From contig NZ_RBIN01000004.1 in NCBI RefSeq assembly GCF_003633775.1, forward strand, positions 362,636-426,635: a DNA stretch of 64,000 bases, written 5' to 3'. The position numbers were made by a program, and so were the translations under genes. Origin of the DNA: Kushneria sinocarnis. GTDB lineage: Bacteria; Pseudomonadota; Gammaproteobacteria; Pseudomonadales; Halomonadaceae. The notes beneath the pieces were generated by a model. It had not been told where the DNA came from, did not search any database, and saw only the letters and a list, made by a program, of their open reading frames with translations. This document shows, one piece after another, positions 1 to 16,680 of the stretch; the first letter of the stretch is position 1, and each line of letters begins with the position of its first letter.

Positions 1-1
1 G

Positions 2-115
2 CTGATTCCGCTGCTCTATTACGTGTCACGCAACCTGGTCAATCCGCAGCTCGAGGGCTGGCAGGACAACATCGAGGACAACCACCCCTCCCGCTGGGTG
101 AAGTTCTCGCCGTAA
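2..115 (+). CDS. Oligopeptide ABC transporter substrate-binding protein, C-terminal end (partial)
   Basis: Only the last 37 codons lie in the window; the frame opens at base 2 and ends with TAA at 113-115. The peptide contains NLVNPQLEGWQDN followed by a SRWVKFSP tail, the usual C-terminus of the SBP_bac_5 (OppA/DppA) family. The next gene carries the same NLVNPQLEGWQDN stretch and is nearly identical to it at DNA level, so this is a third tandem paralogue. It probably binds peptides in the periplasm for the OppBC permease encoded downstream. The family call rests on this similarity to complete neighbours; specificity cannot be read from the fragment. Confidence 0.85.
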   Translation: MIPLLYYVSRNLVNPQLEGWQDNIEDNHPSRWVKFSP

Positions 116-124
116 CCTTCCCCG

Positions 125-144
125 TGACCCACCCCGGTGGGTCA
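125..144. other. Perfect inverted repeat between tandem oppA genes
   Basis: TGACCCACC (125-133) and GGTGGGTCA (136-144) are exact reverse complements separated by CC. No T-run follows, so it is not a classical intrinsic terminator. It sits 10 bases after the stop of the first substrate-binding gene and could protect the upstream mRNA end or attenuate read-through, which is common after highly expressed binding-protein genes. That role is inferred. Confidence 0.55.
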
Positions 145-240
145 TTCACACGGACTCTCCCGCTACCGGCGACGCCTGTACCGGACGGATGAGAGCATGG
201 CGCCAGTGGCTTCACGGCAGACCAGGGGAAGAGGAACATC

Positions 241-1845
241 ATGGTGAAACATCGACTGGCGGCAATCGCCACCACCGCCGCATGGCTGACTGTCACCAGT
301 CTGACCGGGCAGGCGGCGACGCTGGACATCGGCACCCAGGGCGAGCCGGCCTCGCTCGACCCGGCCCGGGTCAACGGTACGGTCTTCGAGAACACCGTGC
401 TCGGCGATCTCTACGAGGGCCTGATCACGCTGGGCCCGGGCGGTGATTACCTGCCGGGGGTGGCGACCCGCTGGGAGACTTCCCCGGACGGGCGTCGCTG
501 GACCTTTCAGCTGCGCGACGATGCCCGCTGGTCCGATGGCGCGCCGGTCACGGCGCGGGATTTCGTGGTGGCCTTTCGCCGCGTGCTCGACCCGGCGACC
601 GCCTCGGTCTATGCCAGCCTGCTCTACCCGCTGCACAACGCCGAAGCCATCAGCCGCGGCGAGGCGCCGGTCGACTCGCTGGGGGTCACCGCACCCGATC
701 CGCATACGCTGGTCATCGAGCTCGACGACAACACCCCCTGGCTGCCCTCGCTGCTCGCCCACATCGTCACCTCGCCGGTGCCGGCCCATCTGATTGACCG
801 ATACGGCAGCCACTGGAACCGGATCGATCACATCGCCACCAACGGAGCCTTCACTCCCGAAAGCTGGCGCTCGCACGATCATATCGCCGCGGTGCGCAAC
901 CCGCACTTTCACGATGCCGACAGTGTCGCCCTCGACGGGGTCAACTACTACCCCGCCGAGGATCTGCAGGCCGGGCTGTCGCGCTTTCGTGCCGGCGAGC
1001 TCGATATCATGCGCGACTTCGATCCGCAGCGTTACCAGTGGCTGCAGGAGCATCTGGGCGATGCCGTGCATCTGCGCAACCAGCTGGCGACCTACTATTA
1101 CGCGCTGAATTCACGCCAGGGGCACCCCACCGCGGATCCCCGGGTGCGCGAAGCCCTCAATCTCGCCCTGCGCCGCCGGGTGATCACCGGGCAGATTCTC
1201 GAGGGCGCGGTCGAGCCCACCACCTCACTGGTCCCCGAAGGCATCAGTCACTACCGGCCCGAAGCGATGCCCGGGCTCGATCAGCCGATGGCGCAGCGCC
1301 TGGCCCGGGCACGCGAGCTGCTCGACGAGGCCGGCTACGGCCCCGACCATCCCCTCGAGCTGCGCCTGCGCTACAACTCGCGCGATGATCATCGCCGCAT
1401 TGCGGTGGCCGCCGCAGCCATGTGGCGCCCGCTCGGCATCAATGTCGAGCTGATCAACGCCGAATCCAGCGTGCACTACTCGAGCCTTGCCCAGGGGGAT
1501 TTCGATGTCGGCCGGGCCAGCTGGGTGGCCGACTTCGACGATGCCAGCAACTTTCTCGGCATCCTGCAAAGCGGCAATCCGAAGAATTACGGGGGGTATC
1601 ACAACCCACGCTTCGACCGGCTGATGCAGCAGGCCGCCGAAGAAACCTCGACCGAGCGACGCCAGACCCTGCTGGCGCAGGCCGAACAGGTGGCCATGAG
1701 CGACTACGCCATGGCCCCGATCTACTCCGACGCGTCGCGCAACCTGGTCAACCCGCAGCTCGAAGGCTGGCAGGACAACGCCATCAACCGTCATCTGGCA
1801 CGCTGGTTGCGTTTCCGGGAAGACGCGGACGCCGGACAGCCCTAA
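241..1845 (+). CDS. Oligopeptide ABC transporter substrate-binding protein (OppA-like)
   Basis: A 534-residue SBP_bac_5 protein that should capture peptides in the periplasm and deliver them to the OppB-OppC permease encoded downstream. The N-terminus is a cleavable signal peptide (positive start, hydrophobic core at about residues 6-20, GQA|A cleavage region) with no lipobox. The mature protein begins with the family pattern GTQGEPASLDPARV and has the signature region RDDARWSDGAPVTARDFV at about residues 90-107. ATG follows GGGGAAGAGG, a good ribosome site. It is the second of at least three tandem binding proteins, and its C-terminal NLVNPQLEGWQDN block is almost the same DNA as in the upstream copy. 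Peptide rather than nickel or sugar specificity is inferred from the Opp-type context. Confidence 0.93.
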   Translation: MVKHRLAAIATTAAWLTVTSLTGQAATLDIGTQGEPASLDPARVNGTVFENTVLGDLYEGLITLGPGGDYLPGVATRWETSPDGRRWTFQLRDDARWSDGAPVTARDFVVAFRRVLDPATASVYASLLYPLHNAEAISRGEAPVDSLGVTAPDPHTLVIELDDNTPWLPSLLAHIVTSPVPAHLIDRYGSHWNRIDHIATNGAFTPESWRSHDHIAAVRNPHFHDADSVALDGVNYYPAEDLQAGLSRFRAGELDIMRDFDPQRYQWLQEHLGDAVHLRNQLATYYYALNSRQGHPTADPRVREALNLALRRRVITGQILEGAVEPTTSLVPEGISHYRPEAMPGLDQPMAQRLARARELLDEAGYGPDHPLELRLRYNSRDDHRRIAVAAAAMWRPLGINVELINAESSVHYSSLAQGDFDVGRASWVADFDDASNFLGILQSGNPKNYGGYHNPRFDRLMQQAAEETSTERRQTLLAQAEQVAMSDYAMAPIYSDASRNLVNPQLEGWQDNAINRHLARWLRFREDADAGQP

Positions 1846-1894
1846 CAACAATCATGGCCCGGCCTCAGGCCAGGAGCCATCACGGGACAATGAC

Positions 1895-3505
1895 ATGAGA
1901 CTGACAACGCTGATGGGGGTGGGCGCCCTGTGCGCCCTGCTCGCCACGGGGCCGCTCCCGGCCGGTGCTGGCGAACCCGATGAAGCCGCCGTGCTGCATC
2001 GGGCCAACGGGGCGGAGCCCTCGTCTCTGGACCCGCAGCTCGGCACCGGGAGCTGGGAATCCAACATCACCGGTGATCTGTTCGAGGGACTGCTGGCACG
2101 CGATGCCGCCGGAGAGCTCATCCCGGGCGTGGCGCAGCGCTGGGACGTCTCGGCTGACGGGCTGACCTATACCTTCCATCTGCGGGAGAATGCCCGCTGG
2201 TCGGATGGCACGCCGGTCACGGCCGGAGATTTCGTCTACGCCTGGCGGCGCCTGCTCTCCCCCGAACTGGGCGCCGCCTACGCCTACCTGCTGTTCCCGG
2301 TCGCCAACGCACGCGCCATCAATCACGGCGAGCAGGCGGCGGAGACGCTCGGCGTGCAGGCCGTCGACGAGCACACGCTGACGGTCACTCTGACGCGACC
2401 GACCGGCTACTTTCCCGAGCTGCTGGCGCATCCCTCGACCTTCCCGGTACCCGAGCAGGCCATTCGTGCCCATGGCAGCCGCTGGACCCAGCCGGGCAAC
2501 ATGGTCTCCAACGGCGCCTTCGAGCTCACCGAGTGGGTCTCGCACGGCCACATCACGGCCCGGCGCAATGCCGATTTCCATGATGCCGCCGGCGTCTCCC
2601 TGCAGGCAGTGACGTACTATCCGATCGACGACGCCCGGGCCGCGCTCAACCGCTTTCGCACCGGCGAGATGGACATGATCGACTCCGTGCCCACCGACCG
2701 GCTCGACTGGGCAAGACGGAGCATGCCCCGGGCGCTGCATGTCAGCCCGATGCTCGGCACCTTCTACTTCGCCTTCAATCAACGCGAGGGCAGCGTGCTC
2801 ACCGACCGCCGCATCCGCGAAGCGCTCAATCTGGCCACCCGGCGGCGCATCATCACCGAAAGGATCACCCGGCTCGATCAACCCCCCGCCTGGTCGCTCG
2901 TCCCGGACGCCATCGATCATTACGACGGCCCCCGCTTCGACTTTGCCGACAGCCCCCTGGAAGAGCGGATGGCCCGCGCCCGGCAGCTGATGCAGGACGC
3001 CGGCTACAGCCCGGCGCATCCCCTGAAGCTGACCATCGACTACATCACCAACCCGGAAACCCGGCGCATTCCGGTGGCACTGGCCGCCATGTGGCAACCG
3101 CTCGGGGTGGACGTCACGCTCATCAACAGCGATGCCGCGGTCTACTACGCCAAACTGCGTCAGGGAGACTTCCAGATCGGCATGGCGCCCTGGGTTGCCG
3201 ACTACAACGATGCCAGCAACTTCCTCGATCTGTTCCGAAGCGGCGTGCCCAACAACCATTCCGGCTATCACCATCCGGCCTATGACCGGCTGATGGCCGA
3301 GGCCGGCGAAACGCTCGATCCCGGCAAGCGGGCCCGGCTCATGGCCGATGCCGAGCAGCGGCTGCTCGATGACGCGGCCCTGCTGCCACTGTATTTTTAT
3401 GTCAGGGCCGTCATGGTATCGCCCCGCCTGACCGGCTGGCAGGAGAACCCGCTGGATATCCATCCGAGCCGCTGGATCCGCTTCCGATCCGGCACCGGCC
3501 AGTGA
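1895..3505 (+). CDS. Oligopeptide ABC transporter substrate-binding protein (OppA-like)
   Basis: A 536-residue periplasmic binding protein of the SBP_bac_5 family and paralogue of the preceding gene (shared order ARWSDGTPVTAGDFVYAWRR, GVPNNHSGYHHPAYDRLM). It has a Sec signal peptide (MRLTTLMGVGALCALLATG, cleavage near GAG|EP). GGGA lies 7 bases before ATG. The C-terminus ends in SRWIRFRSG, the usual last strand. Because the permease and ATPase genes follow directly, it is the most likely binding partner of this OppBCDF unit; the tandem paralogues may extend the range of peptides accepted. The spacing of 49 bases from the previous gene suggests one transcript. Confidence 0.93.
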   Translation: MRLTTLMGVGALCALLATGPLPAGAGEPDEAAVLHRANGAEPSSLDPQLGTGSWESNITGDLFEGLLARDAAGELIPGVAQRWDVSADGLTYTFHLRENARWSDGTPVTAGDFVYAWRRLLSPELGAAYAYLLFPVANARAINHGEQAAETLGVQAVDEHTLTVTLTRPTGYFPELLAHPSTFPVPEQAIRAHGSRWTQPGNMVSNGAFELTEWVSHGHITARRNADFHDAAGVSLQAVTYYPIDDARAALNRFRTGEMDMIDSVPTDRLDWARRSMPRALHVSPMLGTFYFAFNQREGSVLTDRRIREALNLATRRRIITERITRLDQPPAWSLVPDAIDHYDGPRFDFADSPLEERMARARQLMQDAGYSPAHPLKLTIDYITNPETRRIPVALAAMWQPLGVDVTLINSDAAVYYAKLRQGDFQIGMAPWVADYNDASNFLDLFRSGVPNNHSGYHHPAYDRLMAEAGETLDPGKRARLMADAEQRLLDDAALLPLYFYVRAVMVSPRLTGWQENPLDIHPSRWIRFRSGTGQ

Positions 3506-3556: not shown

Positions 3557-4483
3557 ATGCTGACCTATACCGCCAAACGGCTGGCCATGGCGATCCCGAC
3601 CCTGCTGATCGTCATCACCGTATCGTTCTTCCTGATGCGCGTGGCCCCCGGCGGGCCTTTCGACGGCGAACGCCAGCTGCCGCCCGAGATCGAAAACAAC
3701 CTGCGTGCGGCCTACCACCTCGATGAACCGCTGCCGATGCAGTATCTGCGCTACATGGGCAATCTGCTGCAGGGCGATTTCGGTCCGTCGTTCAAGTACA
3801 AGGATTTCTCGGTCACCCAGCTGATCCTGCAGGGGTTTCCGGTCAGCCTCGAACTCGGCGGGCTGGCCATCGGGCTGGCGCTGATCATCGGCCTGCCGCT
3901 GGGGGTGATCGCCGCACTCCGGCGCAACTCCACCGTCGACTACATGGTGATGGGCATCGCGCTGGGCGGCATTGCCGTTCCCAACTTCGTGATCGCGCCG
4001 ATTCTGGCACTGGTTTTCGGCGTACTGCTCGCCTGGCTGCCGGCAGGCGGCTGGAATGGCGGCGCACTGCCCAACCTGGTGCTGCCGGTGATCGCGCTGG
4101 CGATCCAGCAGATTGCCTATATCGCGCGCATGATGCGGGCCTCGATGATCGAGACCCTCGGCAGCCACTTCATTCGTACCGCCCGTGCCAAGGGGCTCTC
4201 CGAGCGCCAGGTGATCTGGCGTCACGCCCTGCGCCCGTCGATGCTGCCGGTCATCTCCTATCTCGGCCCGGCGATCGCCGGCATCATCACCGGCTCGGTG
4301 GTGATCGAACAGATCTTCGGGCTGCCCGGCATCGGCCGCTACTTCGTGCAGGGCGCGCTCAATCGCGACTACACCCTGGTGATGGGCACGGTCGTGTTCT
4401 ATGGCGTGCTGATCGTGCTGATGAATCTGGTGGTCGACCTGCTCTACTCCGCGCTCGACCCGCAAATCCGCTATGACGACTGA
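3557..4483 (+). CDS. oppB: Oligopeptide ABC transporter permease OppB
   Basis: A 308-residue inner-membrane permease of the binding-protein-dependent transport family, DppB/OppB branch. It starts MLTYTAKRLAMAIPTLL, the typical N-terminal helix, followed by VTVSFFLMRVAPGGPFDGER. The cytoplasmic EAA loop that contacts the ATPase is seen as HFIRTARAKGLSERQVIWRH (about residues 209-228). Five to six hydrophobic segments are visible. The length matches E. coli OppB (306). It is the first permease gene after the binding proteins and is followed 18 bases later by oppC. Confidence 0.93.
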   Translation: MLTYTAKRLAMAIPTLLIVITVSFFLMRVAPGGPFDGERQLPPEIENNLRAAYHLDEPLPMQYLRYMGNLLQGDFGPSFKYKDFSVTQLILQGFPVSLELGGLAIGLALIIGLPLGVIAALRRNSTVDYMVMGIALGGIAVPNFVIAPILALVFGVLLAWLPAGGWNGGALPNLVLPVIALAIQQIAYIARMMRASMIETLGSHFIRTARAKGLSERQVIWRHALRPSMLPVISYLGPAIAGIITGSVVIEQIFGLPGIGRYFVQGALNRDYTLVMGTVVFYGVLIVLMNLVVDLLYSALDPQIRYDD

Positions 4484-4501
4484 CCTTCGGACCCTCTGCT
4501 C

Positions 4502-5443
4502 ATGACCAGTCACACTTCTACCCATGACGGTTTCGAAGACCGCCACGACCGGCCGGCCGGCAATCCCAACCCGCCCCCGGAACCCGATCCGGGGCCCGGC
4601 GAGAGCCTGGGTCGCGAAGCCTGGCGCCGGCTGAGGCAGAACCACGCGGCCATGTTCAGCCTCGGGCTGCTGGTCGTGATCACCATCGCCTGCGTGGCCG
4701 GCCCCTGGCTCTCCCCGTGGGGGCTGGCTGACGTCGACTGGAATGCCTTCGGCGTGCCACCGACGCTGGAAGGCATGCACCTGCTCGGCACCGATGCCAA
4801 CGGCCGCGATCTGCTCACCCGTACGCTCTATGGCGGCCGCGTATCGCTGTCGGTGGCACTGGTCGCGACCGTGGTCAGCCTGGTGATCGGCGTGCTCTAT
4901 GGCGCCATCTCAGGGTATGTCGGCGGGCGCACCGACAATCTGATGATGCGGTTTGTCGACATCATGTACTCGCTGCCATTCATGTTCCTGGTGATCCTGC
5001 TGATGGTGGTATTCGGTCGCAATATCTTCCTGATCTATGCCGCCATCGGGGCCGTGGAGTGGCTCGACATGGCGCGCATCGTGCGCGGCCAGACGCTGGC
5101 GCTCAAGCGGCGCGAGTTCATCGAGGCCGCCCACGCGCTGGGCGTGAAGGACAGCCGCATCATCACCCGCCACCTGATTCCCAACACCCTCGGCCCGGTG
5201 ATCATCTACGTCACGCTGACCGTGCCCAAGGTGATCCTGCTGGAGAGTTTCCTCTCCTTCCTCGGTCTCGGCGTGCAGGAACCGCTGACCAGCTGGGGCG
5301 TGCTGATCAGCGAAGGCACCGATCAGATGCAGAGTGCGCCCTGGATGCTGCTGGTGCCGGCGGTATGCCTCGCCCTCACCCTCTTCTGTCTCAACTTCCT
5401 CGGCGATGGGCTGCGTGACGCCCTCGATCCGCGGACGCGCTAG
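4502..5443 (+). CDS. oppC: Oligopeptide ABC transporter permease OppC
   Basis: A 313-residue permease that pairs with OppB. A polar, proline-rich N-terminal tail of about 40 residues precedes the first membrane segment (MFSLGLLVVITIACVAG). The OppC N-domain motif LLGTDANGRDLLTRTLYGGR and the EAA loop EFIEAAHALGVKDSRIITRH are clear, followed by LLESFLSFLGLGVQEPLTSW. No convincing ribosome site is seen before ATG 4502, so translation may be coupled to oppB 18 bases upstream. The next gene starts 10 bases after its stop. Confidence 0.93.
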   Translation: MTSHTSTHDGFEDRHDRPAGNPNPPPEPDPGPGESLGREAWRRLRQNHAAMFSLGLLVVITIACVAGPWLSPWGLADVDWNAFGVPPTLEGMHLLGTDANGRDLLTRTLYGGRVSLSVALVATVVSLVIGVLYGAISGYVGGRTDNLMMRFVDIMYSLPFMFLVILLMVVFGRNIFLIYAAIGAVEWLDMARIVRGQTLALKRREFIEAAHALGVKDSRIITRHLIPNTLGPVIIYVTLTVPKVILLESFLSFLGLGVQEPLTSWGVLISEGTDQMQSAPWMLLVPAVCLALTLFCLNFLGDGLRDALDPRTR

Positions 5444-5453: not shown

Positions 5454-7058
5454 ATGTCGACACCGCTACTTGAAATCGACAACCTGCAGGTCGACTTCCG
5501 GCTGCCCACCGGCACCGTCAGCGCCGTTCGGGGCGTCAGCTTCTCGATCCACGAGGGCGAGACCATGGCGCTGGTGGGTGAATCCGGCTCCGGCAAGTCG
5601 GTGACCTCGACCGCGCTGATGCGGCTGCTGCCGGAAATGACCCATATCAGCGGCAGCGCCCGGCTGGGCGAGCAGGAGCTGCTGAAGATCTCCCCGCGCC
5701 AGATGCGCCGGGTGCGCGGCGACGAGATGTCGATGATCTTCCAGGAGCCGATGACCTCGCTCAACCCCCTGCACCGCATCGGCCGGCAGATTGCCGAGGT
5801 GCTCGAACGCCATCGCGGCATGACCGGGCAGAAGGCGCAGCAGCGGGTGCTGGAGCTGCTGCGCCAGGTGGGCATTCCCGAGCCCGAGCGACGCGTGCGC
5901 AGCTATCCCCATGAACTCTCCGGCGGCCAGCGCCAGCGCGTGATGATCGCCATCGCGCTGGCGTGCGAGCCGAAGCTCTTGATCGCCGACGAGCCCACCA
6001 CGGCGCTCGATGTCACCGTCCAGGCGCAGATTCTGGCGCTGCTGAAGGATCTGCAGCAGCGCTACGGCATGGCGATCCTGTTCATCACCCATGACCTGAC
6101 CCTGGTGCGCCACTTCGCCGAGCGCGTGTGCGTGATGCGCCATGGCGAAATCGTCGAGTCGGGCGACACCGCCACCGTCTTTGAACGGCCGCAGCACGAC
6201 TACACCCGCATGCTGCTCGATGCCGAGCCCAGCGGCACCAAGGCCGCCGTCGACACGCAGGCGCCGATGCTGCTTGAAGCCAGCGATATCCGGGTCCGCT
6301 TTCCGATCAGAAAGCGTCTGTTCGGCAGGAGCGAGTATTTCGAAGCGGTACGCGGTATCACGCTGAACATTCGGCGCGGCCAGACGGTCGGCATCGTCGG
6401 CGAATCCGGTTCCGGCAAGTCCACCCTGGGCCGGGCGCTGCTGCGGCTGCTCGAAAGCCAGGGCTCGATCACCTTCGACAACACCGATATCACCCACCTC
6501 GACAAGTCCGCCATGCGACCGCTGCGCTCGCGCATGCAGGTCGTCTTCCAGGACCCGTTCGGCTCGCTCTCGCCACGCCAGACGGTCGGCGAGATCATCA
6601 GCGAGGGGCTGCGGGTGCACTATCCGGAGCTCGGTCGCCGCGAGCGCGAAGCCCGCATCATCGAAGCGCTGCAGGAAGTCTCGCTCGATCCGGCCATGCG
6701 CCGGCGCTACCCGCACGAGTTCTCCGGTGGCCAGCGCCAGCGGATTGCCATCGCCCGGGCGCTGGTGCTCAAGCCCCGCTTTCTGCTGCTCGACGAGCCC
6801 ACCTCCGCACTTGATCGCTCGGTGCAGATGACGGTCATCAGGCTGCTGCGCGAAATTCAGCGCCGCCATGACCTGACCTATCTGTTCATCAGCCACGACC
6901 TGGCGGTGGTGCGCGCGCTCTCCGATACCGTGCTGGTGATGAAGGAGGGCCAGGTCGTCGAGCACGGTACTTCCGAAACCATTTTCACCCGGCCGCGCGA
7001 GACGTACACGAAGACACTGCTGAAAGCCGCGTTCATGAGCAGCGAGCACGCTGCCTGA
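5454..7058 (+). CDS. oppDF: Fused OppD-OppF peptide ABC transporter ATPase
   Basis: A 534-residue protein with two complete ABC ATPase domains in one chain. Domain 1 has Walker A GESGSGKS (residues 42-49), signature LSGGQRQR and Walker B LLIADEP. Domain 2 repeats [16 protein letters not shown] and FLLLDEP, each with an OppD/OppF-type C-terminal extension. It powers peptide import through OppBC. The frame is open further upstream, but ATG 5454 is chosen because AGGAG sits just before it and [15 protein letters not shown] is the standard start. Fusion of OppD and OppF into one gene is known in several proteobacteria (YejF and GsiA types), so it is not unique. Confidence 0.93.
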
Positions 7059-7104: not shown

Positions 7105-8970
7105 ATGCATTACAGAACAGCTCGTCTCCTGCCGACCACCACCCTGCTGCTGGCGCTGCTGCCGGGAGTGACCAGCCCGGTCATGGCCGCGCAGGCGAGT
7201 CGCGGTACTTCGAACGACGGCGCTTCTGCCGGAACATGGCAGCTTGAGGATCTCTACGCCTCGCCCGCCGCCTGGCAGCAGTCCTACGAACAGGTTTCGC
7301 AGGCCATCGACGGGCTGGATCGCTTCCGGGGGCACCTGACCGACAGTCCGCAGGCCCTGGCCGAAGCGCTGGACGCCGTGCGGCTGAACGCCTATGCCAG
7401 CCTCCGGGCGGACGAGGATCTGCGCAACAGTACCGCCCAGGAGCGCAACAACCGGGCCACGCGCCTGATGGCGCACTACGGCGAAGTGACCGGCTATATT
7501 CGTCCCGAACTGACCGGCATGGACCAGTCGACACTGGCCGAGTGGGCGGCCCGGCCGGTGCTGAAGGTCCACCGCCGGTTTCTGGAAAACGTGATGCGCG
7601 AGGCCCCGCATACCCTGGCGCGCCCCACGGAGTCGGCACTGGCGGCGCTTGCACCGGTCACGACCACGGGCAACACCTATTCGCTGCTGACCAATTCCGA
7701 CATCGCCTGGCCGAGCCTTGCCATCGACGGCAAGTCGCGCACCCTGGATCAGGCCGGCTATTCCCGCTGGCGGGAGTCGGAAGATCGCGATGTGCGCCGC
7801 CGGGTGTTCGAAACCTTCTGGCCGGTCTGGCAGCAGTACGAAACCACCTTCGGCGCCCTGCTGGGCAATCAGGTGCTCGAGCATGTCATCGAGGCACGCC
7901 TGCGCCACTACGACAGCGCCCTGGCGGCCGCCGTCAGCAGTAACGACATCCCGGCGGCGGTCTATCACCAGCTGATCCGCTCCGCCAATCAACACCTGCC
8001 GACCCTGCATCGCTACCTGAAGCTGCGTCAGCGCATGCTCGGCGTTGAACAGCTGCACTACTACGACATCTATCCGCCACTGGTCACGAGTGAACGCCGG
8101 TTTACCATCGACGATGCCCGCCGCCTGACCCGGGCGGCAACCCGCCCGCTGGGGGCGCACTACTCGAAACTGCTCGAACGGGCGACCGACTCGCCCTGGA
8201 CCAGCGTCTACCCGCAACGCGGCAAGCGCTCCGGCGCCTACATGAATGGTTCGGCCTACGATGTCCATCCCTATGTACTGATGAACTTCAATGGCGCCTA
8301 CGGGGATGTCTCCACCTACGCCCACGAATGGGGCCATGGCATTCACTCCATGCTGGCCGATGAGTCGCAGCCCTACGCAACCTCGGATTACCCCATCTTC
8401 ACCGCGGAAGTGGCCTCCACCACCAATGAAGAGCTGCTGATCGATGACATGATCCGTCAGGCCGACAATGACCGGGAGAAACTCTTCTATATCGGCCAGG
8501 CGCTGGAATCACTGCGCGGCACCTTCTTCCGTCAGACCCAGTTTGCCGAATTCGAGCTGGCCATCCATGAAGCCGCCGAACAGGGTACCCCGCTCTCCGG
8601 CAAGCGCATGACGCAGATGTATGGCGACATCCTGAAGAAATACTACGGTGTCGAGCAGGGCGTTACCGCGATCAACCCGGACTTCTTCATCGAGTGGGCC
8701 TACATTCCGCATTTCTATTACAACTTTTACGTCTACCAGTACGCTACCTCGATCACGGCAGCCCACCACTTTGCCAGTGCCCTGAAACGGGATCCCGAAA
8801 AGGTACGCGCTACCTATCTGAACGTATTGTCGAGCGGCGGCAGTGACAGCGGCTACCGGTTGCTGAAACAGGCAGGTGTCGATCTGGCCACTCCTCAGCC
8901 CTATGACGCGCTGATGGACTACATGAACGAGCTGATGGATCAGGCCGAAACCCTGCTCGAGCGTTCCTGA
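7105..8970 (+). CDS. pepF: Exported M3-family oligoendopeptidase (PepF-like)
   Basis: A 621-residue zinc metallopeptidase of family M3, PepF branch, which cleaves short peptides inside the chain. The zinc site is AHEWGHGIHSM (H407, E408, H411) with the third ligand E435 in FTAEVASTTNEELL. Unlike most PepF proteins, which are cytoplasmic, it begins with a Sec-type signal (polar start, hydrophobic TTTLLLALLPGV, cleavage near VMA|AQA), so periplasmic action is likely. It lies 46 bases after the peptide-transport ATPase and is followed by a terminator, so it probably ends the opp transcript. Trimming imported oligopeptides before binding by OppA is inferred from this position. Confidence 0.92.
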   Translation: MHYRTARLLPTTTLLLALLPGVTSPVMAAQASRGTSNDGASAGTWQLEDLYASPAAWQQSYEQVSQAIDGLDRFRGHLTDSPQALAEALDAVRLNAYASLRADEDLRNSTAQERNNRATRLMAHYGEVTGYIRPELTGMDQSTLAEWAARPVLKVHRRFLENVMREAPHTLARPTESALAALAPVTTTGNTYSLLTNSDIAWPSLAIDGKSRTLDQAGYSRWRESEDRDVRRRVFETFWPVWQQYETTFGALLGNQVLEHVIEARLRHYDSALAAAVSSNDIPAAVYHQLIRSANQHLPTLHRYLKLRQRMLGVEQLHYYDIYPPLVTSERRFTIDDARRLTRAATRPLGAHYSKLLERATDSPWTSVYPQRGKRSGAYMNGSAYDVHPYVLMNFNGAYGDVSTYAHEWGHGIHSMLADESQPYATSDYPIFTAEVASTTNEELLIDDMIRQADNDREKLFYIGQALESLRGTFFRQTQFAEFELAIHEAAEQGTPLSGKRMTQMYGDILKKYYGVEQGVTAINPDFFIEWAYIPHFYYNFYVYQYATSITAAHHFASALKRDPEKVRATYLNVLSSGGSDSGYRLLKQAGVDLATPQPYDALMDYMNELMDQAETLLERS

Positions 8971-8995
8971 GCGACGACTGTCCCCCTCCCTGCAG

Positions 8996-9023
8996 GAGCC
9001 GCCGGCAATCTGGCGGCTCTTTT
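8996..9023 (+). terminator. Rho-independent terminator after pepF
   Basis: GAGCCGCC (8996-9003) pairs with GGCGGCTC (9012-9019), an 8-bp stem with an 8-base loop followed by TTTT. It begins 25 bases after the pepF stop and closes the opp-pepF unit. Confidence 0.88.
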
Positions 9024-9542
9024 GTTCGACACGCCCCTCAATGGCGCCAAAACAGTGCAGCCCTCCAAAAGCGCCTTTTTTTGGTTCATTTCCTGATAAA
9101 GGCCTCGTCATGAGGCATTCCTGCAAATATCAATCTTTAATTAAATTCGTCCTTTTCCTGCTTCAGACGCTCCCATCAATGCCTTCAACCCTGCCCTCCT
9201 GCCAGGTCATCATTAGAAATTTTCATTATTGAATATTCAGCTGATCAAACGCCGCACCCTCTCTCCCACTCATGGCGTAATGCCACCTTTTCCGAATCTT
9301 ATCCGCACGATTGGGCCTCTCCCGGCTGCCGGAACAAGGCAGATTCCGACGCTTCATCACGACGGCATCGCCCGCCCACAACCTGATTTTAATTCAGCAT
9401 CAGTGGCCCGGGCCGAGAGTGGCATTTCAATGGCACACTAATTGCTTACCTGAATAAATATCGCCCGCTGAGCGGGGATCAGTCACGCCCCGGCTGACCA
9501 TCCGGGGGTCGCTCGCAATGACCTGCCAATAAAAGAGACAAC
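9024..9542. other. AT-rich intergenic region before tonB
   Basis: About 500 bases without a credible gene; the short open frames here have no ribosome site or family look. The part from about 9060 to 9240 is much richer in A and T than the rest of the window (for example CAATCTTTAATTAAATTCG). It contains a small hairpin GCCTC-GTCAT-GAGGC (9102-9116) and another, CCCGC-TGA-GCGGG (9464-9476). The promoter of the tonB cluster must lie here, but I could not pick a -35/-10 pair with confidence; TGAATAAATA at 9451-9460 is the most -10-like stretch. No clear Fur box was seen. Confidence 0.6.
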
Positions 9543-10313
9543 ATGAGTGACAGTGTCAGGGGAACGGTCGATCAGGGAATCGGCACACAATCGCAACGAC
9601 GCTCCATTGCCAAGGCGGAAATCATTACGCTGCTGCTGGTATCGGCCGCCGTCCACGGGCTGCTCTGGTGGGCACTGAACCGTCAGCCGGATGTACTGGC
9701 CGAAGCCATGCCGACCCAGGCCTCCCGGGCATCGGAGGTGACGGTGTCGCTGACCAGCGCACCTCCGCCTACTCCCGAACCACCTCCTCCTCCACCTCAA
9801 CCACAGGTGGAAGAGGCGCCGGTGGTCGATGAAAACGCGGTCATGCCGGCAGAAGAAGAGGTGGCAGAGCAACCCGAGCCCGAACCCGAGCCCGAACCAC
9901 AGCCGGAACCCGAACCCGAACCCGAACCCGAACCCGAGCCTCGCCCGGCACAGCAGTCGAGTCAGCCGACACGGACCTCGAATCCATCGGCGCAGCGCGC
10001 CTCGAGCAGCAACAGCAGCGCCAACCAGGTGACCCCGGCAGTGTCGGGCATGCAGAGCCTGGGCAATCCGCCGCCCCGTTATCCTTCGCTGGCCCTGCGT
10101 CGCGGTTACGAAGGCAACGTCAGGCTGAAGATCCTGGTGCTGCCCGACGGGACCGCCGGTCAGGTGGAGGTCATCTCCTCCAGCGGTCATCGCGAACTGG
10201 ACGAGGCCGCCGTGGAAACCGTGAAAGGCTGGAAGTTCAAGCCGGCCCGACGAGGCGACACCCCCATCAGGGGCTGGGCGATCCAGACGATTGCCTTCAA
10301 TCTGCCGCGCTGA
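9543..10313 (+). CDS. tonB: TonB energy-transducing protein
   Basis: A 256-residue TonB. One N-terminal membrane anchor lies at about residues 24-42 (EIITLLLVSAAVHGLLWW, including the conserved Ser-His pattern of TonB anchors). A periplasm-spanning Pro/Glu region follows, with a pure Glu-Pro repeat at about residues 113-137. The C-terminal TonB domain has NPPPRYPSLALRRGYEGNV and ends in FNLPR. It transmits proton-motive energy from ExbB-ExbD to outer-membrane receptors. A ribosome site is weak (AAAAGAG). The next genes are exbB, exbD and one receptor, so this is probably a dedicated transducer for that receptor. Confidence 0.93.
   Translation: MSDSVRGTVDQGIGTQSQRRSIAKAEIITLLLVSAAVHGLLWWALNRQPDVLAEAMPTQASRASEVTVSLTSAPPPTPEPPPPPPQPQVEEAPVVDENAVMPAEEEVAEQPEPEPEPEPQPEPEPEPEPEPEPRPAQQSSQPTRTSNPSAQRASSSNSSANQVTPAVSGMQSLGNPPPRYPSLALRRGYEGNVRLKILVLPDGTAGQVEVISSSGHRELDEAAVETVKGWKFKPARRGDTPIRGWAIQTIAFNLPR
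9873..9946 (+). repeat. In-frame hexanucleotide repeat coding for (Glu-Pro)n in tonB
   Basis: Repeated GAACCC/GAGCCC units code for alternating Glu-Pro. The purest run is five consecutive CCCGAA-type units at about 9908-9938. The unit is six bases, so slippage would lengthen or shorten the rigid spacer without shifting the frame. Confidence 0.75.
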
Positions 10314-10360: not shown

Positions 10361-11089
10361 ATGATGAACAGCAGTATTACGCCAATGATCGTGCCCGCGG
10401 TGCTCTGGACCCTGATCGCCTTTTCGGTGGTGACCTGGGCGGTGCTGCTGATCAAGGGGCTGCAGTTTGCCCGCAACCGTACCGAGAACAAGCGGTTTCG
10501 CAAGGCCTTCTGGGAAGCCCGCAGCCTGGAGGAAGGCGAGTCCGTGGCCGAGCAGCGCCCCGGCACCATGGCCTCGATTGCACGCGCCGGGTTTGCGGTC
10601 ATTACCGGCAGCGACATCTCGCCCGACAACCGGGAACTGGCTCAGCGAATCAACCGTTCCGACCGTCTGGAACGCAGCCTGCGTCAGCAGATTCAGCGGG
10701 AACGACGTTCGCTGGAAGGCGGCCTGGCCATTCTGGCCAGTATCGGCAGCACCTCGCCCTTCATCGGCCTGTTCGGCACCGTCTGGGGCATCATGGAAGC
10801 ACTGGTCACCATCGGCGAGACCGGTGAAGCCGGGCTGGACACCGTGGCCGGCCCCATCGGCCACGCCCTGATTGCCACCGGCGTCGGTATTGCCGTCGCC
10901 GTGCCCGCCGTGCTGGTTTACAACTACTTCACCCGTCGCCTCAAGCTCAACGTATCGCTGATGGATGATTTTGCGCACGACTTTTACAGCCTGGCGCAAC
11001 AGAACGAGTTTCATGTTCGCTCTTCGGTCGATACCGGCCATGCAGCACATGGCAACCCCGCTCCCCGGCATCAGCCGATGGGTGCCTGA
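10361..11089 (+). CDS. exbB: ExbB proton-channel protein
   Basis: A 242-residue MotA/TolQ/ExbB-family inner-membrane protein that forms the proton channel with ExbD and drives TonB. Three membrane segments are visible: residues 9-30 (VPAVLWTLIAFSVVTWAVLL), about 120-145 (ILASIGSTSPFIGLFGTVWG) and about 165-190 (GHALIATGVGIAVAVPAVLV). The family motif GLFGTVWGIM is intact. AAGGAG lies 10 bases before ATG. The gene is 47 bases downstream of tonB and 41 bases upstream of exbD. Confidence 0.94.
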   Translation: MMNSSITPMIVPAVLWTLIAFSVVTWAVLLIKGLQFARNRTENKRFRKAFWEARSLEEGESVAEQRPGTMASIARAGFAVITGSDISPDNRELAQRINRSDRLERSLRQQIQRERRSLEGGLAILASIGSTSPFIGLFGTVWGIMEALVTIGETGEAGLDTVAGPIGHALIATGVGIAVAVPAVLVYNYFTRRLKLNVSLMDDFAHDFYSLAQQNEFHVRSSVDTGHAAHGNPAPRHQPMGA

Positions 11090-11130
11090 ATCCGCCCCCT
11101 GCCACCCTTCAGATTCCGGGAGACATGACC

Positions 11131-11532
11131 ATGGCCTTTTCCAATCAGGACGATGATGAAGTACTCAGCGAAATGAATGTCACACCGCTGGTGGATGTCA
11201 TGCTGGTGCTGCTGGTGGTCTTCATTGTAACAGCCCCGCTGATGACCAATGCCGTGCACGTCAATCTGCCCAGGACCGGCGCAGTAGCGCCGCCCGAATC
11301 CAGTGAACCGATGGTAGTGAGCGTGGATGCCGAGGGGCACTATTTCATTGGCAAGCAGGAGTACGCGTTCGAACAGCTGGAAACCCGGCTGCAGCAGGCT
11401 CACGAGGAGAATCCGCAGCAGGCGGTCCAGCTTCAGGCCGATGAAGGCGTCAATTACGGCCAGGTCGCCAAGGCCATGGCGGCCCTTGAACGCTCGGGCA
11501 TTCAGAAGGTCGCCGTACTCACCCAGCAGTAG
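11131..11532 (+). CDS. exbD: ExbD biopolymer transport protein
   Basis: A 133-residue ExbD/TolR-family protein, the partner of ExbB. The start MAFSNQDDDEVLSEMNVTPL and the single membrane segment VDVMLVLLVVFIVTAPLM carry the functional aspartate (D25 in PLVDVMLV). The periplasmic domain ends in KVAVLTQQ. ATG 11131 is preferred over the ATG two codons earlier because GGGAG is 8 bases before it and the family starts with MAF. Length is typical. Confidence 0.93.
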   Translation: MAFSNQDDDEVLSEMNVTPLVDVMLVLLVVFIVTAPLMTNAVHVNLPRTGAVAPPESSEPMVVSVDAEGHYFIGKQEYAFEQLETRLQQAHEENPQQAVQLQADEGVNYGQVAKAMAALERSGIQKVAVLTQQ

Positions 11533-11673
11533 CGGCTCAGGACACTCATCGTGGCAACAGGGAGGGAGAGACCACCGTTTCGGGTGGAATCATGACGCGG
11601 GAAGAAACACTTTCGGACACCCCTGACCGTGTTCGGAACAACAACAAAGAATACTGCAAGGAACAACCCAACA

Positions 11674-14505
11674 ATGATAATGCGACCCGAACGGGGGCGT
11701 TGCGCATCCAGTGCGCCCCTGCGTACCACTTCATCTTCTGCTGCAACCACGGCCGACCGTCACGCTGACTGGCGTCGGACGACGCTTGCCTCAGCCTGGA
11801 TACTGCTGATGGCCTGCTCGCCCCTCTCCCTGGCCGAAGGGGATGATTATGTCGCCCCGCCTGCCGAAGAGAGCGATAACGGCCGCGATGCCGTGGCCCC
11901 GGCTGCAGCGGCCCCGAGCGGCGACACCAATGAGGAGATCGCCGCCCCGGCAGCCCCTGCCGCGGTCGCCGCCGATGGCGACACGCCCACCCGGGATCTG
12001 GGGCGCGTGGAAGTGACCGGCTCGGCCATTGCCCGCACCGATGCCGAAACCGCAGTCCCCGTGACCATCATCCAGGCCGATGAAATCAAGCAGCAGGGGA
12101 TCACCTCGACCGAGGAGCTGGTTTCGCAGCTGAGTTCCAATGACACCAGCTTCGGCCCCGGACTGAGCACCGGCACCGCCATTACCGCAGGGGCAAGCTT
12201 TGCCAACCTGCGCGGGATCGGCACCGACAAGACGCTGGTGCTGCTCAACGGCCGCCGGCTGGCCAACAACTCGCTGGATGGCGGCGCGGTCGATCTCAAT
12301 ACCATTCCGTTCGGTGCCATCGAACGGGTCGAGGTGCTGCGCGACGGCGCCTCCGCCATCTATGGCACCGACGCCATCGGGGGTGTGATCAACTTCATCA
12401 CCAAGAAGAATCTCAGCGGCGGCGACATCGAGTTCGGCTATGAAACGCCGACCCAGGGCGGCGGCGGTGACAGCAACGACATCAGTGCCACCTGGGGGAA
12501 CGGCGATCTCGAGGAAGATGGCTTCAACATCATGGGGTCGCTGAGCTACCGCAAGCAGAATCACCTCGACTATACCGACCGCGACAGCATCCGCGAGATC
12601 TATGATCCGGCCAGCGGCATCTACTCGGTGTCGTCCTACGCCTACCCCGCCAACTACTACCAGGGGGATATCTCGGGCAATCCGCTGGCTGCCAGCGGCT
12701 GTAACGGCACGGGGCTGGTTGATACGGGCGGCGGCACCTGCTCCTACGACTATGGCCGCTACGGTCAGGTACAGCAGGACAGCGAAAAGACCTCCCTCTA
12801 CACCCGGGCCAGCGCCCGACTGGCCGAGAACCACAGCGCCTCGCTCTCTTATCTGTGGTCGCGCAGCAAGAACACCTCCCTCAGCGCGCCCTCACCCACC
12901 TCGTCGGCGCCCGAAATCCAGCCCGGCACCCCCTTCTACCCGGATGATCCGGCACTGGACCCGACCCAGCCGGTGTCGGTGCGCTGGCGCGGCATTCCGG
13001 CGGGCGCCCGGGAAACCTACAACACCATCGACGCCAAGCGACTGGTGCTGGATTTCACCGGTGACTTTTCCGGCTTCAACTACGACAGTGCCGTCTCCTG
13101 GAACCGCAGCACAACCGATCTCGACTACCGCGGCGGCTATCTCTCCGATGACGACCTCGAGAATGCCTTCAATGACGGGCTGATCGACCCGTTCTCGACC
13201 GACCCGCTGACCGAAGCCGGGCAGCAGGCGCTGGCCGATGCCGAGGCCAGTGGTCTAGTATGGACGGCACAGACCGACGTCTATGCGTGGGATGGCAAGC
13301 TCAGTCGCGAGATCGGCGACTGGTTCGGTGCCGGCTCATCGGCGATTGCCGTGGGGGGCGACTACCGGCATGAACGGCTCAAGCTGGACACCGATGCGGA
13401 CGTCGCCTCACGGGCCACCAGTGGCGGCCTGTCGCCGGACGCTTCGGTCAACGAGGACCGCGACGTCAAGGGCGTCTACAGCGAACTGAACGTGCCACTG
13501 ATTGACGGCCTCGAGATCACCGCCGCCGTTCGCTACGACGATTACAGCGATGTCGGCGATACCACCAATCCCAAGATCTCGTTTCGTTATCAGCCGGTCC
13601 GCCAGCTGCTGATCCGTGGCGCCTACAGCGAGGGCTTTCGCGCGCCCACGCTGTATGAACTCTACGATCCGCAGGCTCTGACCTTCTCTCCCAGCGGTCT
13701 GAGCGATCCGCAGCTCTGCCCCGGCGGCACGCCCGCCAACGGCGGCGTGGCGACGCGCGACTGCAACACCCAGTTCCAGGAACAGCAGGGCGGCAACGAG
13801 GATCTCGAGCCGGAAGAGGCCAGGAACTGGACGCTCGGTTTCGTCTTCCAGCCCTTTGACAGCTTCTCCGCCGGGCTCGACTTCTGGTGGGTCGAGATCG
13901 AGAACGAGGTGTCCGCGCCGACCTCGGCCTACGTCATCGCCAACGACCCCGGGTCGATTGCCCGCAACGATGACGGCTCGATCGACTACATCCCGGTGCA
14001 GAACCAGAACCTGGGCAAGACCAAGACCAACGGGGTCGACATCTCCGCCAACTATCGCAAACCCACCACCTACGGCCTGTTCACCATCGGCTATTCCGGC
14101 ACCTATGTGGACCGCTATGACTTCCAGGAGTCGCCCGACAGCAGCTATGTCAGCAATGTGGGCCACTACCGCAGCGGCTACGGCACCATCTTCCGCTGGA
14201 AGCACAAGGTGACCTTCAACTGGGCCAGGGGGCAGTGGGCGGCCGGTCTGATCAACCACTACCAGTCCGGTTATGATGACTACGATACCGAGACCCACGA
14301 CGAGGTCGGGTCCTACACCACCTGGGATGCGCTGGCCTCCTACATGTTCATGGCCGGGCCGCGGATCACGCTCGGCGTGAAGAACATGTTCGACCGCGAT
14401 CCGCCCTTCTCCAATCAGCCGGAAGTGGGTCAGAGCGGCTACGACGCGCGTTACGCCGATGCCCTCGGCCGCACCGTCTATGCCCGCCTGAATTATACCT
14501 TCTGA
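11674..14505 (+). CDS. TonB-dependent outer-membrane receptor
   Basis: A 943-residue receptor. The plug domain shows the TonB-box-like LGRVEVTGS, then FANLRGIGTDKTLVLLNGRR and VEVLRDGASAIYGTDAIGGV (about residues 170-245); a barrel follows and ends with the C-terminal aromatic YARLNYTF. It belongs to the 'NLRGIG/LLNGRR' receptor group rather than to classical siderophore receptors. The frame is open up to a GTG at 11629, but ATG 11674 follows AAGGA. The N-terminus is long, with a hydrophobic segment LASAWILLMACSPLSLA about 50 residues in, then an Ala/Pro/Asp-rich linker of about 60 residues. It lies just after tonB-exbBD and before a secreted peptidase, so a peptide substrate is plausible but inferred. 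Confidence 0.9.
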   Translation: MIMRPERGRCASSAPLRTTSSSAATTADRHADWRRTTLASAWILLMACSPLSLAEGDDYVAPPAEESDNGRDAVAPAAAAPSGDTNEEIAAPAAPAAVAADGDTPTRDLGRVEVTGSAIARTDAETAVPVTIIQADEIKQQGITSTEELVSQLSSNDTSFGPGLSTGTAITAGASFANLRGIGTDKTLVLLNGRRLANNSLDGGAVDLNTIPFGAIERVEVLRDGASAIYGTDAIGGVINFITKKNLSGGDIEFGYETPTQGGGGDSNDISATWGNGDLEEDGFNIMGSLSYRKQNHLDYTDRDSIREIYDPASGIYSVSSYAYPANYYQGDISGNPLAASGCNGTGLVDTGGGTCSYDYGRYGQVQQDSEKTSLYTRASARLAENHSASLSYLWSRSKNTSLSAPSPTSSAPEIQPGTPFYPDDPALDPTQPVSVRWRGIPAGARETYNTIDAKRLVLDFTGDFSGFNYDSAVSWNRSTTDLDYRGGYLSDDDLENAFNDGLIDPFSTDPLTEAGQQALADAEASGLVWTAQTDVYAWDGKLSREIGDWFGAGSSAIAVGGDYRHERLKLDTDADVASRATSGGLSPDASVNEDRDVKGVYSELNVPLIDGLEITAAVRYDDYSDVGDTTNPKISFRYQPVRQLLIRGAYSEGFRAPTLYELYDPQALTFSPSGLSDPQLCPGGTPANGGVATRDCNTQFQEQQGGNEDLEPEEARNWTLGFVFQPFDSFSAGLDFWWVEIENEVSAPTSAYVIANDPGSIARNDDGSIDYIPVQNQNLGKTKTNGVDISANYRKPTTYGLFTIGYSGTYVDRYDFQESPDSSYVSNVGHYRSGYGTIFRWKHKVTFNWARGQWAAGLINHYQSGYDDYDTETHDEVGSYTTWDALASYMFMAGPRITLGVKNMFDRDPPFSNQPEVGQSGYDARYADALGRTVYARLNYTF

Positions 14506-14526
14506 ACCCCTGCCCCCCCCTGTACG

Positions 14527-14555
14527 GTCGCTGCCAATCTGGCAGCGACTTTTTT
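14527..14555 (+). terminator. Rho-independent terminator after the receptor gene
   Basis: GTCGCTGCC (14527-14535) pairs with GGCAGCGAC (14541-14549), a 9-bp stem with a 5-base loop followed by six T. It starts 22 bases after the receptor stop and separates it from the M13 peptidase gene, which therefore has its own promoter or depends on read-through. Confidence 0.9.
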
Positions 14556-14598
14556 ATCCTGCATTTCGTACGCTCTCTTTCGACTTCACCGGGACTGG

Positions 14599-16680
14599 AT
14601 GTTGATGATGCGCAAACCGATATCTCCCCCCGCTCCGCTGCGCGCGGCCGGCCTGCTGACGCTGGGACTGCTGCTGTGGCAGCCTCCGGCGCTGGGGGCC
14701 AAGGCTCCCGACGAGGGCCGGGCCGCCATGGGTGACTGGGGAGTACAGCTTGATGCCCTGGATCGCAGCGTCGATCCGGGTGACGACTTCTACCACTACG
14801 TCAACGGCAGCTGGCTCGCCCGCGCCTCGATTCCACCGGATCGCAGCAATTACGGCGCCTTCACCGAGCTTGCCGATACCGCCGAGCAGCAGGTGCATGA
14901 CATCCTCCAGCAGCTGGATGGTGCCGATACACCGCCCAACTCGCCCCAGCAGCGCCTGGGCGATCTCTATCACGCCTGGATGGACCGGAGCGCCATCGAG
15001 CAGCGCGGCCTCTCCCCCATTCGGCCGGATCTCGAGCGCATCCGGCAGGCAGACGACAAGACGGTACTTGCCCGCCTGATGGGCGAGGCCGGAATGGGGC
15101 TGAGCTCGCTGGCCGAGCCCTCGATCGACATCGATGTCCGCGATACCGACCGCTACGTCACCTATCTCTCCCAGATGTCGCTGGGCCTGCCGACCCGGGA
15201 CTACTACCTCGAGCAGCAGCCCCGCTTCAGGGAGATCCGGCACGCCTATGTCGACTATATTGCCCGGCTGCTGCGCCTGGCCGACCAGCCCCATCCCGAA
15301 GGCAGTGCCCGGCGCATCCTCGCGCTGGAAACCGAAATGGCCCGGGCGGAGTGGCCCCCCGCGAAGCAGCGCAATCGTTCACTGACCTACAATCCGATTC
15401 AGCCCGATCAGCTGGCGCTCTATGCCCCGGGCTTCCCGTGGCAGAGCTGGCTCGAGGCCAGCGGTCTGGCGGGACAGGACAAGCTGGTACTGCGGGAAAA
15501 CGACGCCATCCGCGGACTGGCCCGGATCTACGCCACCACTCCGCTCTCGACGCTCAAGGCGTATCTGAGCTTCCGGCTGCTGTCGGCCAACAGCGATTAC
15601 CTGCCCAGCGCGATCGACCAGGCCAGCTTTGACTTCTATGGCAGCACCCTCTCCGGGCAGCCGGAACAGCGCGAGCGCTGGAAGCGCGGGGTCAGCCTGA
15701 TCAACAGCCAGCTGGGCAAGGCCGCCGGCAAGCTCTATGTGATGCTGCATTTCTCTCCCGAGGCCAAGCAGCAGATGCAGCAGCTGGTGGCCAATCTCAA
15801 GGCGGCCTATCGCGATCGACTCACGCACGAGGTGAGCTGGATGACGCCCGAGACCCGTCAGCGGGCGCTGGACAAGCTCGATGCCTTCACCGCCAAAATC
15901 GCCTATCCCGATCACTGGGAAGACTATGAGGGCATGACCATCCGGCCCGATACGCTCTATGCCGATATCCGGGAGGCACGCCGCTGGCACTGGCAGGATG
16001 AACTCGCCAAGCTCGGCGGACCGATCGATCGTGACGAGTGGTTCATGAACCCGCAGACGGTCAATGCCTACTACGCTCCGAACCGCAACGAGATCGTGTT
16101 CCCGGCCGCCATCCTGCAACCGCCCTTCTTCGATCCCAACGCCGATCCGGCCGTCAATTATGGCGGAATCGGTGCCGTCATCGGCCATGAAATGAGTCAC
16201 GGCTTCGACGACCAGGGCCGCAAGTCGGACGGTCAGGGGCGTCTGGTCGACTGGTGGACCAGCGCCGACACCGAGCACTTCGATCGGCTGGCCGACGAGC
16301 TGGGGCAGCAGTATGCCCGATACGAGCCGGTGAAGGGCTATCACCTCGACCCCGAGCTGACCATGGGCGAGAACATCGGCGACCTGGGCGGGCTCAACAT
16401 CGCCCTGAGCGCCTATCACCGCTCGCTGGAGGGTCAACCGGCCCCGATCATTGATGGCTTTACCGGCAACCAGCGCTTCTTCATGGGCTGGGCACAGGTG
16501 TGGCGCCGGCTGTTCCGGGAGCAGGCGCTGATCAATCGCATCAAGAGCGACCCCCACTCGCCCTCGCAATACCGGGCCAATGGCGTGGTACGCAACATGG
16601 ATGCCTGGTACGAGGCCTTTGATGTCACACCGCAGGATCAGCTCTATCTGCCGCCGGATCAGCGAGTCGTGATCTGGTAA
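14599..16680 (+). CDS. pepO: Exported M13-family metallopeptidase (neprilysin/PepO-like)
   Basis: A 693-residue zinc endopeptidase of family M13. The signal peptide is hydrophobic (AAGLLTLGLLLWQPPALGA). The N-terminal domain starts at LDRSVDPGDDFYHYVNGSW, the standard M13 beginning. The catalytic domain has NAYYAPNRNEIVFPAAILQ, VIGHEMSHGFDDQGR (zinc ligands H530, H534) and ENIGDLGGLNIA (third ligand E591). It ends in VVIW, the usual M13 C-terminus. These enzymes cleave peptides up to about 40 residues; here it would act in the periplasm. Several ATGs are clustered at the start (14599, 14605, 14608). It is the last gene of the peptide-acquisition block. Confidence 0.92.
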   Translation: MLMMRKPISPPAPLRAAGLLTLGLLLWQPPALGAKAPDEGRAAMGDWGVQLDALDRSVDPGDDFYHYVNGSWLARASIPPDRSNYGAFTELADTAEQQVHDILQQLDGADTPPNSPQQRLGDLYHAWMDRSAIEQRGLSPIRPDLERIRQADDKTVLARLMGEAGMGLSSLAEPSIDIDVRDTDRYVTYLSQMSLGLPTRDYYLEQQPRFREIRHAYVDYIARLLRLADQPHPEGSARRILALETEMARAEWPPAKQRNRSLTYNPIQPDQLALYAPGFPWQSWLEASGLAGQDKLVLRENDAIRGLARIYATTPLSTLKAYLSFRLLSANSDYLPSAIDQASFDFYGSTLSGQPEQRERWKRGVSLINSQLGKAAGKLYVMLHFSPEAKQQMQQLVANLKAAYRDRLTHEVSWMTPETRQRALDKLDAFTAKIAYPDHWEDYEGMTIRPDTLYADIREARRWHWQDELAKLGGPIDRDEWFMNPQTVNAYYAPNRNEIVFPAAILQPPFFDPNADPAVNYGGIGAVIGHEMSHGFDDQGRKSDGQGRLVDWWTSADTEHFDRLADELGQQYARYEPVKGYHLDPELTMGENIGDLGGLNIALSAYHRSLEGQPAPIIDGFTGNQRFFMGWAQVWRRLFREQALINRIKSDPHSPSQYRANGVVRNMDAWYEAFDVTPQDQLYLPPDQRVVIW

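Follow-up and report, generated by a model that had tools for sequence, protein, structure and literature searches.

A laterally gained TonB-dependent receptor module with an RpoN-type promoter match beside the resident Opp importer of Kushneria sinocarnis: a candidate route for oligopeptides

We analysed a stretch of 64,000 nucleotides (nt) from Kushneria sinocarnis (NCBI RefSeq assembly GCF_003633775.1, contig NZ_RBIN01000004.1, positions 362,636 to 426,635 of the forward strand; in the following, the window), which starts with the genes of an Opp-type peptide importer, two peptidases and a TonB-dependent receptor (TBDR) with an adjoining TonB-ExbB-ExbD motor. All of them are encoded on the + strand. 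The importer part comprises the binding proteins SBP3 (241..1845) and SBP4 (1895..3505, subtype A, directly 5' of oppB), the permeases OppB (3557..4483) and OppC (4502..5443) as well as OppDF (5454..7058), i.e., OppD and OppF as a single gene with its ATG at 5454. It is followed by an M3 peptidase of the PepF type (7105..8970), TonB (9543..10313), ExbB (10361..11089), ExbD (11125..11532), the TBDR (11629..14505, start codon uncertain) and an M13 peptidase (14599..16680). Two further binding-protein genes begin upstream of the window: SBP1 lies there entirely (L003:6723-8372), while the 3' end of SBP2 (L003:8448-10115) covers window positions 1..115. A preliminary description of the sequence had named this gene set with three tandem binding proteins. 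All genes named in it have open reading frames on the + strand and their families are confirmed by Pfam/NCBIfam domains; the tandem OppA-type genes are present too, but there are four of them.

The domain set of the importer is complete, i.e., SBP_bac_5 (two whole copies inside the window, in SBP3 and SBP4), two BPD_transp_1 permeases (OppC with an additional OppC_N) and two ABC_tran stretches plus oligo_HPY in OppDF, as is characteristic of Opp-type importers. Compared with the OppA profile, the binding proteins score 367-414 bits, which is under the equivalog cut-off of 947 bits, while NikA yields about 100 bits. We infer that the importer moves oligopeptides. The receptor shows the Plug and TonB_dep_Rec_b-barrel domains of a TBDR and is adjoined by TonB (TonB_C), ExbB (MotA_ExbB) and ExbD (ExbD), with the same neighbours in all 11 receptor loci introduced below. 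With regard to the peptidases, the M3 protein reaches 499.1 bits against the PepF equivalog TIGR00181 (cut-off 490.55); the M13 protein has the Pfam domains of its family (Peptidase_M13_N, Peptidase_M13), but its 308.2 bits against the PepO equivalog NF052391 stay far under the cut-off of 1000. Both are predicted to be exported. That is, hydrophobic N-termini, in line with the signal peptides of the preliminary description, were recovered in 15/15 M3 and 11/11 M13 orthologues, judged by a hydropathy reading that chooses the most favourable start rather than by a trained predictor, and are accompanied in all of them by the motif HEWGH (M3) or HEMSH (M13). Another M3 peptidase, shorter-range and without a signal-like N-terminus, is found elsewhere in the genome (G000:C5:4542-5909).

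The spacer between M3 and tonB has a G+C content of 37-53% in the 11 loci (window: about 65%) and contains in all of them a conserved block with consensus TGGCA-N6-TTGCT, the -24/-12 form of a sigma-54 (RpoN) promoter. In the window, the match TGGCAC-N5-TTGCT at 9431..9446 (+ strand, 96 nt 5' of the tonB start) is the sole perfect instance of TGGCAC-N5-TTGCW within 64 kb; matches with one mismatch number five vs. 2.15 expected. The site precedes tonB in 11/11 loci of the family, without mismatch in 9 and with a single one in 2. It also stands 5' of the module's first gene in 5/5 remote loci with TonB-ExbB-ExbD beside a receptor of 39-51% identity (perfect in L238, L239, L231 and L245, one mismatch in L243), compared to 0/20 control TBDRs from the window's bacterial family within -500 to +150 of the start. 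Two remote lone receptors differ from each other, i.e., one has no site, while that of the other lies 181 nt upstream and deviates at one position. Since the genome also encodes rpoN, the module shows both marks of an RpoN-dependent operon, namely a -24/-12 site 5' of its first gene and the sigma factor; RpoN activator domains are encoded in the genome as well, none of them on contig C4.

Terminator-like hairpins were found 3' of M3 (8995..9020, + strand, one per locus) in 11/11 loci and, with a T run, 3' of the TBDR (14526..14550, + strand) in 10/11. They were counted without shuffle control, and a generic hairpin scan of the window shows no excess (9 vs. 8.1 in shuffles). Given these hairpins and the separate sigma-54 site before tonB, we reject a single operon; three transcription units are likely, i.e., opp-M3, tonB-exbB-exbD-TBDR and M13. 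Other control elements were searched for as well. The activator-site scan revealed no exact dyad common to more than 3/16 upstream stretches, such that we do not propose a shared activator site, and the sigma-70 scan yielded 0 sites vs. 3.1 in shuffles. Riboswitch control was rejected given 0 Rfam matches in window positions 1-22000. The same holds for iron control: the best Fur-like sites of the 11 loci are equalled by 11-99 of 100 shuffles per locus, for a consensus that weak sites may escape.

To assess conservation, we used 151 genomes of the family, drawn evenly and with few candidates scored per genome; all frequencies refer to this sample and homologue counts to the matches listed. TBDR orthologues (73-81% identity) occur in 11/151 genomes, namely the window's, 9/18 sampled Salinicola genomes and one Phytohalomonas tamaricis. 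The order SBPs-OppB-OppC-OppDF-M3-TonB-ExbB-ExbD-TBDR-M13 is identical in 11/11 loci (SBP1 of the G127 locus being truncated by the end of the stretch), i.e., the genes are not scattered among receptor-bearing relatives, an outcome that would have refuted the preliminary description. M13 orthologues of at least 70% identity are found in exactly these 11 genomes (one extra genome has a 41% match) and M3 in the 11 plus four others. SBP4 of subtype A lies directly 5' of oppB in 8/11 receptor loci vs. 0/67 other scored loci, as if a binding protein often arrived together with the receptor. In 20 control TBDR regions (20 kb, same family), a peptide ABC importer was found in 1/20 and TonB/ExbB/ExbD/M3/M13 in 0/20. 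The gene set, complete in 11/11 receptor loci, is thus associated beyond chance. Beside it, Salinicola and Phytohalomonas have a YkfC-like NlpC/P60 gene that separates SBP2 from SBP3 (L042:4124-5059, L052:4359-5378), which hints that Opp may also handle murein peptides in these cassettes; the window's cassette lacks it, with a SBP2-SBP3 gap of 125 nt (L003:10115 to window position 241).

The importer and the receptor have different distributions. Within the window's genus, OppDF is present in 10/10 genomes and the receptor in 0/9 of the others. The nine same-genus cassettes examined end at MerR-CopA in 9/9 cases and start at prfB in 8 (the G097 stretch begins within a binding-protein gene). 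In the window's genome, prfB and lysS on the opposite strand form the left flank, and a MerR-family regulator plus a copper-type P-ATPase (window 16763-20091) the right one. In many genomes of the family, the latter pair marks the right border of the Opp locus.

Trees built from the module and from the importer disagree. The OppB+OppDF tree groups the 15 Salinicola rows in one clade (100/100); in it, the window's genome and G090, another member of its genus, form a pair (100/100). In the receptor tree, on the other hand, the window's TBDR is nested within Salinicola (99/99), and Salinicola as one clade is rejected (approximately unbiased test, p 0.0057). The window's M3 copy falls outside Salinicola in its tree. 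Judging by these phylogenies, the receptor moved laterally while Opp stayed resident, i.e., a TonB-ExbB-ExbD-TBDR(-M13) module was added to it at a site that is occupied by a porin in many relatives. The preliminary description had seen one self-contained locus, which does not stand: nine of the ten genus genomes keep Opp without the receptor, whose module joined laterally, with a sigma-54 promoter of its own.

The porin shares its address with the receptor, i.e., the slot 3' of OppDF that is bounded by OppDF and the MerR-CopA flank. We surveyed 80 loci and kept 78, dropping G133 (contig end) and G004 (OppDF below 60% identity); G136 of the Salinicola group, with a broken OppB match, is outside the survey. 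Porins were called with a hidden Markov model built from five slot proteins, with one round of iteration thereafter. A porin-like gene, on the OppDF strand, occupies 24 slots and the TBDR block 11, none holds both and 43 hold neither, where the last number includes G105 and G117 (less than 600 bases 3' of OppDF) as well as G051 (less than 3 kb). Among three slot proteins compared with Pfam, two match porin families (Porin_4, Porin_1) and that of G090 none at 1e-5. Many of the 'neither' slots listed contain only a FadL-like gene on the opposite strand; one Salinicola copy is Toluene_X/FadL according to Pfam. Within Salinicola, the porin is present in 6/7 receptor-less readable loci vs. 0/9 receptor loci (Fisher p 0.0009), and the absence of 'both' over all 78 loci has a hypergeometric p of 0.012; both tests were made post hoc, after the pattern had been noticed, and ignore kinship. 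We also derived five independent contrasts on supported branches of a quick Opp tree with 78 rows. Here, M13 tracks the receptor in 5/5 and M3 in 3-5/5 contrasts, YkfC in only 0-1/5, while the porin varies inversely to the receptor in 2-4/5. In a genus labelled g8 (L148, L149, L164), extra genes lie between OppDF and M3, including a glutamine-synthetase-like protein as read from sequence; its slot holds a porin in G031 only (G007 and G046 are without).

The module also occurs at remote loci. We opened 3/12 plasmid-record matches (H1, H4, H7), the sole class-level match (G798), all seven matches in the family of G798 (six of them new, at four new loci) and 5/48 order-level genomes at about 30% identity; a lack of peptide genes there means none by the query set used within 20 kb. 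A Pseudomonas aeruginosa plasmid (L238:1234-17268) shows the order TldD-TldE-ABC (exporter form)-TonB-ExbB-ExbD-TBDR (48%)-SBP-permease annotated YejB-second permease-ATPase, where the Yej-type importer is annotated as microcin C transporter. On this plasmid, a second sigma-54-like site with one mismatch is seen before tldD (L238:1077). An Acinetobacter baumannii record (L239:323-14151) encodes SBP-SBP-M3-two permeases on one strand and TBDR (39%)-TonB-ExbB-ExbD-ExbD on the other; a perfect sigma-54 match precedes the TBDR here. In G798, a POT carrier and M3 lie beside TonB-ExbB-ExbD and the receptor (46%). A Salinisphaera relative has three tandem receptors (46-50%) behind a single TonB-ExbB-ExbD set (L243+L244, G898:C22:171759-182148). 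Since the parts are unscattered in receptor-bearing relatives, the peptidases track the receptor and the module recurs beside other peptide importers, they plausibly form one pathway. To this extent the preliminary description is sustained by shared inheritance and recurrence, though not in its picture of a single unit.

The receptor model is a plugged barrel with a predicted local distance difference test (pLDDT) value of 80.2 and a predicted template modelling (pTM) score of 0.78, where residues 1-127 are disordered. Its structural matches are generic, such that we rejected the fold comparison as a source for the ligand. Scores against the siderophore, haem and B12 receptor models TIGR01783, TIGR01785 and TIGR01779 are 84, 134.8 and 111.4 bits, i.e., far below the respective cut-offs of 223.5, 316.85 and 599.7. 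The SusC/RagA signature TIGR04057 reaches 22.5 bits (cut-off 46.2) and no SusD-type lid domain was found in the scanned proteins of the window, from SBP3 to MerR, which led us to reject SusCD membership. Two cysteine pairs (residues 358/371 and 697/712) are invariant across 56 aligned receptors and possibly form two loop disulphides. Several database entries of the receptor family bear the name 'iron complex outermembrane receptor'.

Taken together, we consider it probable that a resident Opp has been complemented by a laterally gained TBDR module with its own motor and an RpoN-type promoter, predicted to import oligopeptides and likely active under shortage of nitrogen or amino acids. The adjoining TonB-ExbB-ExbD would power the receptor, which would bind oligopeptides, including those too large for porins, and carry them through the outer membrane. 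In the periplasm, the exported M13 and M3 (PepF) peptidases would trim this cargo, and the four OppA-type proteins would hand the pieces to OppBC-DF. RpoN is linked to nitrogen status in many nitrogen genes and serves other regulons too; here, it may make the outer gate respond to the supply of nitrogen or amino acids. A more general version is tentative and, in our view, slightly less likely than not: a portable, RpoN-switched and self-powered gate of Gammaproteobacteria that docks onto the importer of its host (Opp, Yej, a Dpp-like one with M3, or POT), recruits exported peptidases or brings them along, and replaces a passive porin, such that N-starved cells would switch from passive to active peptide uptake.

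Several observations weigh against these interpretations. With neither porin nor receptor in 43/78 loci, Opp needs no gate next door. The independent events are few and the sign tests on the contrasts fail to reach 0.05; in the M13 tree, Salinicola as one clade is not significantly rejected (p 0.085). Peptide partners adjoin the module in just 3/7 remote loci, i.e., the four other loci in the family of G798 are without peptide genes (two with TonB-ExbB-ExbD, two lone receptors). Among six relatives of about 30% identity, only G285 has a peptide importer, a divergent peptide ABC, and no sigma-54 site accompanies its receptor; the query set used revealed no peptide importer at G409, G325, G253, G187 and the Glaciecola plasmid. 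Finally, among the matches listed by the structure search, the neighbours are only siderophore, haem, colicin or B12 receptors.

The latter finding, which holds for the closest solved structures by sequence as well as fold, speaks for genes that are adjacent but functionally unrelated, i.e., for a receptor of iron, B12 or some other ligand that is not a peptide, located beside Opp by position only, as does the lack of a nearby peptide gene in 4/7 remote loci. Such an arrangement is, however, hard to reconcile with a block that is kept in 11/11 loci and co-inherited with M13 and SBP4 of subtype A; a peptide importer is found beside only 1/20 control TBDRs. Furthermore, the conserved upstream element is a sigma-54 site, while there is neither a riboswitch nor a Fur-like site above shuffles. 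Iron or cobalamin, a response to which would have refuted the preliminary description, is thus disfavoured as far as sequence evidence goes, and we regard a non-peptide ligand as improbable. Slightly better placed, yet still unlikely in our view, is the import of a single, specific compound of peptide nature (such as a metallophore, a ribosomally synthesised and post-translationally modified peptide (RiPP) or another peptide antibiotic), where the peptidases would free or destroy the cargo. TldD/TldE and Yej belong to microcin biology, and in the Pseudomonas record the module adjoins TldD/TldE, an ABC-exporter-like protein and the Yej-type importer with its microcin C annotation. Four binding proteins and their OppA-like profile (compared to NikA) rather fit a broad use of peptides, and the sigma-54 site is common to loci with different importers; the window genes read include no recognisable gene for a RiPP precursor or its maturation, although no search was dedicated to precursors.

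Far less credible than either is that the receptor imports murein (cell-wall) peptides for recycling or scavenging. It would explain the YkfC-like gene in the Opp cassette of 18/78 loci, which matches the B. cereus structure 3h41 over its full length as well as the YkfC SH3 model; YkfC is reported to cleave gamma-D-Glu-diamino acid bonds (PMC2954226). However, the gene goes with the lineage of Opp rather than with the receptor, and the window's cassette lacks it; with 0-1/5 contrasts in its favour, we rejected murein peptides as receptor cargo. M3 and M13 enzymes are, to our knowledge, not known for cleaving such bonds. We thus maintain the import of oligopeptides through the gained module as the preferred reading.

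Many proteobacterial TBDRs have no assigned ligand, and receptors that share a sigma-54 promoter and are repeatedly found beside peptide importers would define a directly testable ligand class among them. Receptors of this class may offer cells a way to use peptides that porins would pass poorly, and could serve as entry routes for peptide antibiotics. Since porin and receptor alternate at one address, sister species would furthermore lend themselves to comparing passive with active uptake across the outer membrane under natural conditions.

Each part of the locus is known, while the combination of receptor, Opp and exported peptidases in Proteobacteria appears to be new: we found no description of it in titles and abstracts of the open-licence literature, in line with the preliminary description, which knew of no named system of this composition. 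The lactococcal opp-pepO locus links a peptide ABC importer to an M13 peptidase of the PepO type, and the lactococcal PepO and PepF enzymes are cytoplasmic in a cell with one membrane. The window shares with it the importer, an M13 peptidase and an M3 peptidase above the PepF cut-off. It differs in that both peptidases are predicted to be exported, M3 having a signal-like N-terminus in contrast to classical PepF, and in that M13 is far under the PepO cut-off. OppDF is near YejF (697.3 bits) and remote modules adjoin a Yej-type importer, which is reminiscent of YejABEF; still, OppDF stays under the YejF cut-off (834 bits) and the binding proteins fit OppA best. For RagAB of Bacteroidota, TonB-dependent uptake of peptides or protein fragments is proposed (PMC11817032). 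RagAB/SusCD and the locus studied here both have a TBDR for which such cargo is proposed or predicted, but in the latter the genes of the motor and of a peptide ABC importer lie alongside, and its SusC signature is under the cut-off. The closest parallel to the other state of the slot is DppBCDF of P. aeruginosa, which works with five binding proteins and whose dppA4 shares a transcript with opdP, a gene for an outer-membrane porin (PMC4206461). Both systems have several binding proteins, one ABC importer and a linked gene for an outer-membrane gate. In Dpp, however, this gate is a passive porin and there is no TBDR, such that its arrangement is similar to that of the slots with a porin (24/78).

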